From Roseomonas sp. (GTDB lineage: Bacteria; Pseudomonadota; Alphaproteobacteria; Acetobacterales; Acetobacteraceae): 64,000 nt of DNA. The stretch is from positions 1-64,000 of the forward strand of contig JADCGA010000016.1 of assembly GCA_020249265.1 (NCBI GenBank). The letters run 5' to 3'. Position numbers and translations under genes: made by a program. The notes under the pieces were generated by a model. It ran no database searches and was not told the origin of the DNA. It saw nothing but the letters and a program-made list of their open reading frames with translations. Positions within the stretch are counted from its first letter, which is position 1. Each line of letters opens with the position of its first letter. Shown here piece after piece: positions 13,331-17,012 of the stretch.

Positions 13331-14074
13331 TTATACCCCGAGATACTGATGCAACCGATCTAGCGAGGCATTCAGGTCCTCATTCGCAACCATATCCACC
13401 ACGCGACCATGTTCCATCACGTAATGCCGATCAGCGACCGTCTGCGCGAAACGGAAATTCTGCTCCACCAACAGCACGGTAAAGCCGCGCTTCTTCAATT
13501 CGCGGATGGTGCGCCCGATCTGCTGCACAATCACCGGCGCCAGACCTTCTGAGGGCTCATCCAGCAGCAAAAGCCGCGCGCCGGTACGCAGAATGCGCGC
13601 AATGGCCAGCATCTGCTGCTCACCACCCGAAAGCTTCGTGCCTTGGCTGCGCGCCCTCTCCTTCAAATTAGGAAACAGGGTGTAGATTTCATCCAAGGGC
13701 ATCCCACCCGGGCGCACCGTTGGCGGCAGCATCAGATTTTCCGTGACATCGAGCGAGGCAAAAATGCCGCGCTCCTCAGGGCAATAGGCAATGCCGGCAC
13801 GCGCAATCACATCGGGGCGCGCATTGACGAATTCCTTGCCGTCATACTTCACCGAACCGGTGCGGCGCGGCACCAGCCCCATGATGGAACGCAAGGTGGA
13901 TGTCTTGCCCGCGCCGTTGCGGCCAAGCAGCGTCACCACTTCGCCTTCGCGGATATCAATATCCACGCCGTGCAATACGTGGCTTTCGCCATACCAGGCC
14001 TCAAGCCCGCGAATTTCCATCAGCGCGCCAGTGCTCGCCTTGGCGCCGGCGGGCGCTGTCATCACATCAGCCAT
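13331..14074 (-). CDS. Branched-chain amino acid-type ABC ATPase, LivF-like
   Basis: The 247-residue ATPase has Walker A GRNGAGKT (51-58), LSGGEQQM (148-155) and Walker B LLLLDEP (168-174) followed by SEGLAP, the LivF hallmark. The start at 14074 is chosen because GGAGG lies seven bases upstream and the ATG overlaps livG's stop by eight bases; a longer reading would add an implausible basic peptide. It works with LivG on the LivHM channel. Confidence 0.92.
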   Translation of the reverse strand: MADVMTAPAGAKASTGALMEIRGLEAWYGESHVLHGVDIDIREGEVVTLLGRNGAGKTSTLRSIMGLVPRRTGSVKYDGKEFVNARPDVIARAGIAYCPEERGIFASLDVTENLMLPPTVRPGGMPLDEIYTLFPNLKERARSQGTKLSGGEQQMLAIARILRTGARLLLLDEPSEGLAPVIVQQIGRTIRELKKRGFTVLLVEQNFRFAQTVADRHYVMEHGRVVDMVANEDLNASLDRLHQYLGV

Positions 14075-14861
14075 GGGCGGCCTCCGTCGGGGCTTCCGAA
14101 CCAAGATAGGCAGCAATCACATCCGGGTTGCGCGATACGGCGGCGTAGTCGCCTTCCGCCAGCACACTGCCGCGCGCGAGCACGGTGATGGTATCGCAAA
14201 GCCCTTGCACGACCCTAAGGTTGTGTTCCACCAGCAGAATGGTGCGGCCCACGGATACACGCTTCACCAGCGCCACCACCCGGTCCACATCATCATGCGC
14301 CATGCCCGCCGTTGGTTCATCCAGCAGCATCATGACCGGATCAAGTGCCAGCGTGGTTGCAATTTCCAAGGCGCGCTTGCGCCCATAGGGCAATTCACCC
14401 GCGGTCAGATGCATCCATTCGGTCAGGCCCACATCGGCCAGCAATTCCTCAGCCCGCGCATCAAACTTGCGCAAGACCGAATCGGAACGCCAGAAATCGA
14501 AAGAACCGCCACGGGCGCGTTGCAAGGAAACGCGCACATTTTCAAGCACGGTCAGATGCGGGAACACGGCGGAGATCTGAAAACTCCGCACCAGGCCAAG
14601 CCTGGCCACCTCGGCTGCCTTCATGCCCGTGATGTCGCGACCATCATAACGGATGGCGCCACGCGTCGGCGGCAGGAATTTCGTCAGCATATTGAAGCAA
14701 GTGGTCTTCCCGGCGCCATTCGGGCCGATCAAGCCATGGATGGTGCCCCGGCGGACGTTCAGGTTCACGTCGCTGACCGCGACGAAGCCCCGAAATTCCT
14801 TGGTAAGCCCTTCCGTTTCAAGGATGGTGTCAGACACCAGAACCACGCCCCCCTTTTTCAT
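14067..14861 (-). CDS. Branched-chain amino acid-type ABC ATPase, LivG-like
   Basis: The ATPase of about 264 residues has GPNGAGKTT (Walker A), GELPYGRKRALEIA (the variant LivG signature), LLDEPTAGM (Walker B) and the C-terminal LivG motif with GSVLAEGDYAAV...VIAAYLG. First gene of the seven-gene operon. The start is uncertain: ATG 14861 gives a normal family length, while a GTG at 14837 has a better-spaced G-rich site. Upstream codons beginning at TTG 14972 overlap the trigger factor terminator and are rejected. Confidence 0.9.
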   Translation of the reverse strand: MKKGGVVLVSDTILETEGLTKEFRGFVAVSDVNLNVRRGTIHGLIGPNGAGKTTCFNMLTKFLPPTRGAIRYDGRDITGMKAAEVARLGLVRSFQISAVFPHLTVLENVRVSLQRARGGSFDFWRSDSVLRKFDARAEELLADVGLTEWMHLTAGELPYGRKRALEIATTLALDPVMMLLDEPTAGMAHDDVDRVVALVKRVSVGRTILLVEHNLRVVQGLCDTITVLARGSVLAEGDYAAVSRNPDVIAAYLGSEAPTEAAHG

Positions 14862-14970
14862 GGCGGTTAAAACCGCGACGCCTCTTTGCACCTTACCTAT
14901 GCGAGGCTTGGCCTTCCTGCAAGCCACCCGCTTCATTTCCCGACAAAAATCGCCAGCGCACCATCTGAAC

Positions 14971-15003
14971 AAAAAAAGGGCAGAGGTTGCCCCCTGCCCT
15001 TTT
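14971..15003 (-). terminator. Rho-independent terminator after the trigger factor gene
   Basis: A ten-base stem (AAAAGGGCAG / CTGCCCTTTT) with a ten-base loop runs into seven T on the minus strand. It lies 22 bases after the stop at 15025 and isolates the gene from the Liv operon. Confidence 0.9.
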
Positions 15004-15024: not shown

Positions 15025-16875
15025 TCAGGGTTCCGATAATTCTTCAGGCTTCACCTGGCGTTCGGCAACCTTCGCCAATTCCAGGATGAAATCCACCACC
15101 TTTTCTTCAAAAATCGGCGCGCGGAGGTTCTCCATCGCTTCGGGATTCTTGCGGAAGAAATCAATCACCTGTTGTTCCTGGCCACGGTAACGCATGGCTT
15201 CCTGACGCAAAGCACCGCTCAGCTCATCCGGTGTGACCTGTATGTTGTTGCTGCGGCCAATCTCGGACAGCAGCAGGCCAAGCCGGATCCGGCGCTGGGC
15301 GATGCCGCGATATTCGTCGCGCAGCGTGGCCTCATCCTTGCCGGCATCATCGGAATCCAGCCGCCCGGCCTTCAAATCGGCTTCCACGCGCTGCCAGATC
15401 TGGCTGAATTCACCCTCCACCATGCCTTCCGGCACGGGGAAGCTCGCCTGATCGGCAAGCTTGTCCAACAGGGCGCGCTTCAGGCGCATGCGCGACATGG
15501 CGTCATATTCGCGCTGCAAGCCTTCTTTCACCTGGGCTTGCAGGGCGGCAAGATCGGCCTGGCCGACAGTCTTCGCCAATTCATCATCAATGGCGCGCGG
15601 CACGCGCTGCTGCAGCTTTTTCGCCGTGATAGAGAATAGCGCGCGCTTGCCAGCCAATTCCGCCGAGCCGTAATCCAGCGGGAAGACCACCTGGATATCG
15701 CGGCTATCGCCAACGGACATGCCTTCCATCTGTTCGGTGAAGCCCGGGATGAAGCCAGGGCCGCCGACTTCAATCGGCATATCGCTGGCCGACCCACCGG
15801 CGAAAGGCGCCAGTGCGGGTTCTTCCGTACCTGCAATCAACCGCGCCGGGCCGATGCGAAGCGTAAATTCCACCGCCGCACCCGCCGGCATGCCATGCAG
15901 GTAAATGAAGGGCCTGCAGGCGCCGATTTCAGCGTGGTTGGGGAAGGTGAAGGCAAGCGTGCTGCGCCCGGCCGTCACATCAAAACCCTCACGCTGCATA
16001 TCGAGGAAATCAACGCTGTCCTGGCCCAAGCTATAGAAATTGAAGCCAAGCTTCCCCTGAATGCCTTCCGGCAGGCTGCCGCCAGCCAGTTTGGTGCTGA
16101 CCATCAAGCTTTGCGTGGCACCCGGCGCGGCGGCAATGCCCTTCGCACCTTCCAGGAACACCTGCACCCAGCCAGCGTCACTGGTCGTGCCGCTCACGCG
16201 AAGATCGAAATAGGGCAAAGCCTCATCCGTTCCGATGGCAGCGATTTCCGACATCAAGCCGCCCGAAAGCCCAATTTCCCAACCGCGCGGCGCCTGGCCC
16301 GGAATGCCGGGCACGGCCCCAAGGGCCGGGCCATTGGTCAGCAGATCAGGCACCACGGAGCCGGCGAAATCGCACACCATCACCTCGCCCTTGGTGGCGG
16401 GGCGGGCTTCGGTCACGTCAGTCAATTCGCCATTGCGCGTCGCGAGCGTTTCCAGGATTTTGCTCACTTCCTCATCGGAAGGCTCAGCGCGCAGGCGTTC
16501 CAGCTCAATGCCGGAAAAATCAGGCATCGGCACATCCGGCAGCACTTCCAATTCCATGCGGAATTCAAGGTCACCGCCATCGGGGAAATTCGTCACCTCT
16601 ATCTTAGGTTGCAGCGCGGGCTTCAGGCCACGATCGCTGACAACCTTACGGGAGGCATCGCCCACGGATTCTTCCAGCACTTCACCCATCACGGCGGTGC
16701 CGTAGCGCTGGCGCACAATGGAAAGCGGCACCTTGCCCGGGCGGAAGCCCGGCAGCGAAACCGTCTTGGCGATTTCGGAAAGGCGCTTTTCGCGGCTTGA
16801 GGCGATATCGCCCGCCGGAAGCGTCACGGAATAGGCGCGCTTCAAACCTTCATGCGCGAGCTCATTAACCTGCAT
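15025..16875 (-). CDS. tig: Trigger factor with a large domain inserted in the PPIase domain
   Basis: Ribosome-associated chaperone/prolyl isomerase of 616 residues, where the family normally has about 430-450. The N-terminal ribosome-binding domain has the GFRPGKVP signature (43-50). The PPIase domain starts normally (KGEVMVCDFAGSV, about 162-174), is broken by about 183 foreign residues (175-357), then resumes at FAGGSASDMPIEVGGPGFIPGF and continues to LFSITAKKLQQRVPRAID. The helical C-terminal chaperone domain (about 425-616) is intact. Frame is kept on both sides. The start at 16875 (MQVNELAHEG) matches other trigger factors; an ATG at 16890 would add five residues. The gene follows tRNA-Leu and ends at a strong terminator; clpP/clpX are not next to it. 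Confidence 0.93.
   Translation of the reverse strand: MQVNELAHEGLKRAYSVTLPAGDIASSREKRLSEIAKTVSLPGFRPGKVPLSIVRQRYGTAVMGEVLEESVGDASRKVVSDRGLKPALQPKIEVTNFPDGGDLEFRMELEVLPDVPMPDFSGIELERLRAEPSDEEVSKILETLATRNGELTDVTEARPATKGEVMVCDFAGSVVPDLLTNGPALGAVPGIPGQAPRGWEIGLSGGLMSEIAAIGTDEALPYFDLRVSGTTSDAGWVQVFLEGAKGIAAAPGATQSLMVSTKLAGGSLPEGIQGKLGFNFYSLGQDSVDFLDMQREGFDVTAGRSTLAFTFPNHAEIGACRPFIYLHGMPAGAAVEFTLRIGPARLIAGTEEPALAPFAGGSASDMPIEVGGPGFIPGFTEQMEGMSVGDSRDIQVVFPLDYGSAELAGKRALFSITAKKLQQRVPRAIDDELAKTVGQADLAALQAQVKEGLQREYDAMSRMRLKRALLDKLADQASFPVPEGMVEGEFSQIWQRVEADLKAGRLDSDDAGKDEATLRDEYRGIAQRRIRLGLLLSEIGRSNNIQVTPDELSGALRQEAMRYRGQEQQVIDFFRKNPEAMENLRAPIFEEKVVDFILELAKVAERQVKPEELSEP
15805..16353 (-). other. Inserted domain in trigger factor, lectin/tail-fibre-like
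   Basis: This in-frame segment of about 183 codons replaces the short DGxx loop between GSV and FAGG of the FKBP-like domain. It reads like a domain I know from alphaproteobacterial phage tail and secreted proteins: DLLTNGPALGAVPG, then PRGWEIGLSGGL, GTDEALPYFDLRVSGTT, IAAAPGATQSLMVSTKLAGGSL, and FTLRIGPARLI at the end. Predicted to be all-beta from its alternating pattern. The similarity is from memory and the function is unknown. Confidence 0.75.
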
Positions 16876-16927
16876 CGGAGGATCGTCCATCCCAAGCTAG
16901 AGAAACAAAAGGCCGCGGCGGCGCCGG

Positions 16928-17012
16928 TGGTGCGGGCGAAGGGACTCGAACCCCCAAGGCTTGCGCCACCGGAACCTAAATCCGGCGTGTCTACCAATTC
17001 CACCACGCCCGC
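16928..17012 (-). tRNA. tRNA-Leu, anticodon UAG
   Basis: Read on the minus strand, the 85-base gene has acceptor stem GCGGGCG/CGCCCGC with the 3' CCA encoded (16930-16928). The anticodon stem CCGGA/TCCGG closes a loop TTTAGGT, giving anticodon TAG for CUA codons. The long variable arm typical of leucine tRNA and the GGTTCGAGTCC T-loop are present. It lies just upstream of tig, an arrangement found in other alphaproteobacteria. Confidence 0.95.

Follow-up and report, generated by a model that had tools for sequence, protein, structure and literature searches.

A phage-tail-type, CBM4-like domain in a hairpin turn of the trigger factor prolyl-isomerase domain of Roseomonas-like Acetobacteraceae

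Trigger factor (TF) is described in PMC11559001 as the one general ribosome-associated chaperone of bacteria, with GFRxGxxP as its ribosome-binding motif. Its peptidyl-prolyl isomerase (PPIase) pocket is made up, according to PMC6166725, of F168, F177, I195, F198, F217, Y221 and F233 (Escherichia coli numbering), and F177 also lines a cleft for the second tryptophan of the client. A plan of three domains is treated as typical. Guest domains near the active site of FKBP-fold prolyl isomerases are known from SlyD, SlpA and FKBP18, whose insert-in-flap (IF) domain of about 65 residues is placed in the flap of the fold by PMC11013033, which also reports that an IF domain put into FKBP12 greatly raised folding activity. 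Further variants of TF include the chloroplast TIG1 and the TFs of multi-copy bacteria, extra copies of which often lack the ribosome motif; in the sections consulted, PMC9527764 and PMC11559001 mention no inserted domain. Here we describe tig, the gene at positions 15,025 to 16,875 of a 64,000-nucleotide stretch of Roseomonas sp. DNA (hereafter the window; assembly GCA_020249265.1, contig JADCGA010000016.1), which encodes a TF carrying a domain of the kind found in phage tail proteins.

The window's protein scores 376 bits against TIGR00115, a curated equivalog of NCBIfam (cut-off 180.2), has the Trigger_N and Trigger_C domains together with the GFRxGxxP motif, and is the sole TF match in its genome. 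Its 616-residue frame is open, with a second possible start at an in-frame ATG at 16890. Compared with E. coli TF (Tig; TIGR00115; 1W26), it has 182 extra residues in a hairpin turn: the alignment breaks off at residue 174 (V172) and restarts at residue 357 (E176), the insert taking the place of D173-E175, which in E. coli form a tight turn joining two strands of the PPIase domain and which in insert-less relatives correspond mostly to a five-residue, DGxxF-like stretch. FKBP_C (Pfam, E 4.5e-9) covers residues 358-416 only, the portion downstream of the insert. The junction lies one residue before pocket residue F177, and every pocket residue has its equivalent in the window's protein (Table 1). 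The first-pass annotation had proposed a TF split in frame by 183 residues that replace a short loop near the prolyl-isomerase site, at a place other than that of the SlyD insert. All of this holds, the boundaries being right to within about one residue; the insert lies between positions 172 and 176, outside the flap, which in TF is presumably near Y221.

Structure prediction models the insert as a beta-sandwich folding independently of its host, in line with the separate fold that the first-pass annotation had expected. Its best fold matches are the carbohydrate-binding modules (CBMs) CBM4, CBM16 and CBM22, and its predicted CBM4-like jelly roll is also the fold of tailspike and fibre domains, although identity to the CBM4-2 module of Rhodothermus marinus is just 14%. 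At the level of sequence, a tail-type hidden Markov model reveals significant similarity to domains of alphaproteobacterial phage tail and baseplate proteins, among them the phrog_5939 tail protein, gp49 of Azospirillum phage Cd and a GP46-type baseplate protein (L050), as well as proteins in prophage-like tail modules (L148, L149). Computation identifies the insert as a CBM4-like jelly roll of a type that phage tail and baseplate proteins also use. Tail proteins bearing the domain match PHROG tail families, whereas 10 inserts searched by themselves drew no PHROG match better than E 0.31 and no noteworthy Pfam match. The label "tail" denotes any non-TF protein carrying the domain; among 19 such rows, PHROG tail families recognise 16 (L056 at just E 0.0064) and miss three (L055, L128, L129). 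A PDB sequence search with the insert returned no match, and a search of the window's genome at E <= 10 found no copy of the domain besides that in tig. Free-standing relatives of about 100-325 residues came to four short proteins among 7,996 candidates scored, two of them carrying TF Pfam domains and the other two listed without any. A scan of viral_contigs with conserved peptides of the TF inserts drew 32 stretches and no relatives; because these patterns are TF-specific, the result says nothing against a phage origin. Within the window's own genus, the baseplate-wedge protein of a prophage-like tail module (L149, genome G418) bears a domain of the TF-insert type.

A database search with the insert region returned 46 proteins, all with TF Pfam domains, of which the near-full-length ones measure 592-621 residues and one is named Neoroseomonas nitratireducens. 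In a collection of named genomes, 28 insert-bearing loci were found in metagenome-assembled genomes (several titled as lake-derived, many called Roseomonas sp.) and in Neoroseomonas and Roseomonas strains, including cultured Neoroseomonas; these loci overlap with the genomes of the family, order and genus searches and are not independent samples. Two of the metagenome-assembled genomes (L064, L086) are titled Asaia bogorensis, probably wrongly, since their tig inserts are 91-94% identical to that of the window. Of 35 genomes from the window's genus, 33 give a match at E <= 1e-20, which is every genome with a readable region: in G832 tig leaves the contig end after 98 residues, and G828, 78% complete, is without any TF match. 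Counted as lower bounds that include tail proteins (8-11 first-look candidates scored per genome), matches occur in 70 of 397 genomes of the Acetobacteraceae (first insert profile, E <= 0.01), in 63 of 299 from a sample of the order (wider profile), all within the window's family, to which the order-sample genomes without a match, as far as shown, also belong, and in 2 of 385 from a sample of the class, one being the window's own genome. The other (L146, genome G545), the sole class-level match outside the family, has the domain in an open reading frame (ORF) of 402 residues. Among the matches listed for a request of 200 genomes, 186 of them with a TF, there were 17 TF frames of at least 588 residues, 12 with the insert and 5 merely with a long upstream frame. 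The insert is absent from all 37 TFs sampled in other families of the class: 28 could be aligned, all with five residues at the turn, and the remaining nine frames (428-518 residues) are too short to hold it. Within the genera g17 and g4, some species have the insert and others do not. In the samples searched, the insert is thus patchy and confined to one clade of the family, and the order-wide presence that the first-pass annotation had considered does not hold.

The turn itself preserves a record of this history. A quick TF tree without bootstrap, built with the insert excluded and with 28 outgroup rows as its root, unites the 29 main TFs that bear the insert and 13 that lack it in a clade of 42 (SH-aLRT, an approximate likelihood-ratio test, 100). 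Its rows are a non-random set, chosen as top TF hits, as long frames or for carrying the insert; the four second copies were excluded, and many of the near-identical rows from the genus had been removed beforehand. All 56 rows outside the clade have exactly five residues at the turn, whereas 9 of the 13 insert-less rows inside it have 7-16 (e.g. L015, L005, L091, L105 and L110), a pattern that fits one putative gain followed by several imprecise deletions.

From these observations we tentatively favour, at somewhat less than even confidence, an account in which a tail-type, CBM4-like domain became lodged in the PPIase hairpin turn by one entry in the lineage ancestral to the Roseomonas-like Acetobacteraceae, disappeared several times afterwards and serves as an accessory module on the PPIase head. 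The entry would most likely have happened once, and the losses would mostly have left a longer loop behind. The ribosome-binding and C-terminal domains, like the prolyl-isomerase pocket, are retained. The domain may act as a rigid module that overhangs the mouth of the pocket, because it exits the turn one residue from F177, and it may offer nascent chains another surface on which to be held or filtered ahead of prolyl isomerisation or while it proceeds, much as the IF domain of SlyD-type FKBPs does, though from a different turn. Such an accessory holding surface is the most likely predicted function. Several observations weigh against this account. The tail-type domains were gathered with the insert profile, and the sample therefore consists of those most like the insert. 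The other four insert-less rows of the clade, from genera g73 and g45, have a plain five-residue turn, reflecting either clean losses or the ancestral state. Some lineages can do without the domain, as its repeated loss shows. In Neoroseomonas (13 sequences) the ratio of nonsynonymous to synonymous substitution (dN/dS) of the insert has a median of 0.65 and a range of 0.23-1.05, against 0.18-0.28 for the TF domains, which appears to speak for fast change. A third insert tree, with other boundaries and more rows, places the inserts of genus g64 among the tails, as a second capture would. Finally, the full-length model has a predicted template modelling score (pTM) of just 0.54, so that a position of the domain above the pocket is no more than tentative.

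The main alternative, doubtful though far from negligible, is that the domain is a tolerated passenger, captured by chance, harmless at a permissive hairpin turn, jobless and lost whenever a deletion happened to occur. The several losses with leftover loops within the clade and the rapid change in Neoroseomonas are what such a passenger would produce, and the inserts appear to be without a broadly conserved aromatic platform of the ligand-binding type. Pocket residues, too, look alike whether or not the guest is present: the 29 insert-bearing TFs keep them all except for one V at F177, and 41 insert-less TFs depart from them just twice at F168 (Y) and once at I195 (V). A jobless domain is harder to reconcile with the window's own clade, in which dN/dS (13 sequences, 78 pairs) is 0.098 for the insert, inside the span of values for the other parts of the protein (0.142 for the N domain, 0.058 for the PPIase flanks and 0.056 for the C domain) and suggestive of a job. 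Nor would a passenger be expected in every genome of the genus with a readable region, or in second copies of TF that have lost the pocket.

How often the domain was captured is a separate question. That related tail domains were captured independently several times at a single hot-spot turn, in place of one capture and many losses, seems unlikely. The TF trees call for at least 6-7 changes, very long branches separate the inserts of different genera, the g64 inserts nest among tails in the one tree already mentioned, and elongated loops could represent a permissive state preceding insertion. Against this, a first domain tree that includes TF-derived ends splits 30 TF-type inserts from 19 tail domains by one branch (100/99), and with those ends removed the core-only tree still keeps the TF-type inserts on one side (98/93). 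The approximately unbiased test does not reject a single clade of TF inserts (p-AU 0.567), the constrained tree scoring slightly higher. The inserts of g17 and g4 are moreover sisters in the insert tree (95/84), as are their TFs in the TF tree (100/98); this places the insert in the ancestor that the two genera share and makes their insert-less members cases of loss. With the third tree not one-sided and a single clade not rejected, one capture is preferred on these trees, yet unproved.

Second copies offer a further view of what the domain may do. Second TF or TF-like genes that keep the insert occur in genus g1 (L121, L122, L123, L151, L156) and in other genera (L046/L152, L118/L153, L119/L154, L130/L155). 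In L121, L122, L123 and the very divergent L130 the pocket is eroded, F168 being replaced by V or I in all four and Y221 by H in three and S in one, and the insert is nonetheless kept. Pfam fails to detect FKBP_C at 1e-4 in L121, L123 and L151. Trigger_C is above its cut-off in the TF-like ORFs L046 and L119 and below it in L118, and the ribosome motif is missing from the insert-bearing L046, L118, L119 and L130. The insert persists where the pocket is lost, and any role it has would therefore be separable from isomerisation. A bolder reading, which we regard as improbable at present though worth stating, is that one domestication event turned a phage tail module into a functional part of TF, a second head binding clients or ligands in Roseomonas-like bacteria, and that after duplication it became the main part of a new TF-like class (the g1 second copies, L046, L118, L119 and L130), with the pocket gone or unrecognisable and, in the last four, the ribosome motif gone as well, while the phage-derived domain stays.

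The genes beside these copies are varied. L122:5611-11813 (by clustering also L121:1430-7620) holds a run of a TIR-domain protein, a gamma-glutamyltranspeptidase, a sulfotransferase-like protein and the TF paralog, the last two genes less than 10 bases apart; the first two genes were scanned in L122 and the weak sulfotransferase match in L121. At L152:3838-8715 the insert-bearing TF-like gene is followed, about 10 bases on and on the same strand, by a two-module glycosyltransferase gene. The copy in L154 adjoins sugar transferase and GT2 genes and that in L153 an RTX-Hint gene; other neighbours are a GSP synthase (L156), ribonucleotide reductase (L123) and a molybdopterin enzyme (L155). These neighbourhoods have no common theme and were not used as a clue to function.

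The first-pass annotation had called the domain lectin- or tail-fibre-like. Its beta-sandwich of CBM4 or tail-fibre type and its homology to tails stand; the lectin part is weakened. That the domain is a working carbohydrate-binding module, which binds a glycan or glycosylated client and steers TF there, now appears quite unlikely. The CBM fold matches would suit such a role, as would the glycan-related genes near some second copies (L121, by clustering L122; L152; L154), unlike the unrelated neighbours of others. TF, however, acts at the ribosome, in a cytosol that contains few glycans. Pfam detects no CBM family in 10 inserts at E <= 1, CBM_4_9 included, and CBM_4_9 matches the tail relative L050 at E 0.021, below the cut-off. 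Of 17 aromatic or histidine positions in the window's insert, W199 and Y222 alone are near-constant (aromatic in 26 of 29 TF inserts); both are common in tail domains too, and their roles are for this reason probably structural. F223 alone leans towards TF, its position being aromatic in 18 of the 29 inserts but in none of the 19 tails. A true lectin is on this sequence evidence the less likely reading.

A join of a phage contig into tig during assembly or by contamination, the artefact that the first-pass annotation had envisaged, can be dismissed, because TFs of the same plan, in frame, occur in many assemblies, including 33 of 35 genus genomes and cultured strains, and the flanking gene order is kept. 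The livF- and livG-like genes stay beside tig in relatives of the window's genus, and the order transketolase, tig, livG, livF is conserved in relatives over the extent of the stretches compared. The window's assembly comprises 72 contigs.

Table 1. Features of the tig locus and of its product (window coordinates)
Feature	Coordinates	Strand	Remarks
tig, trigger factor, 616 aa	15025..16875	(-)	start ATG 16875 (MQV...), stop 15025-15027
Trigger_N, N-terminal ribosome-binding domain, residues 1-144	16444..16875	(-)	Pfam, E 2.3e-37
Ribosome-binding signature GFRPGKVP, residues 43-50	16726..16749	(-)	GFRxGxxP motif
FKBP/PPIase domain, first piece, residues 150-174 (to ...CDFAGSV), pocket residue F170 (= E. 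coli F168)	16354..16428	(-)	
Inserted phage-tail-type, CBM4-like beta-sandwich, residues 175-356 (182 aa)	15808..16353	(-)	replaces E. coli 173-175
PPIase domain, second piece, residues 357-425, pocket F358, I376, F379, F398, Y402, F414	15601..15807	(-)	
Trigger_C, C-terminal chaperone domain, residues 442-599	15079..15552	(-)	Pfam, E 8.9e-37
tRNA-Leu	16928..17012	(-)	directly upstream of tig
livF- and livG-like branched-chain amino-acid type ABC transporter ATPase genes	13331-14972	tig's strand	downstream of tig

Set beside the systems described so far, the component families are known, and the combination, position and history are new to us; literature searches, in which subscription papers lay outside coverage, brought up no published account of an additional domain within trigger factor. 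As in SlyD, SlpA and FKBP18, a guest sits near the active site of an FKBP-fold isomerase; unlike theirs, it is a 182-residue domain of tail and CBM4 type in the turn before F177, and its host is the ribosome-bound TF. It shares sequence homology and the tailspike and fibre fold with the accessory domains of phage tails, baseplates and fibres, but it is housed in a cellular chaperone and forms its own group in two of three insert trees. Insert-bearing and insert-less relatives within g17 and g4, together with the leftover loops, amount to a natural experiment, and such close relatives can be compared to test how a guest domain affects prolyl isomerisation and the handling of nascent chains. They also offer a traceable route from a phage structural protein into core cellular machinery.
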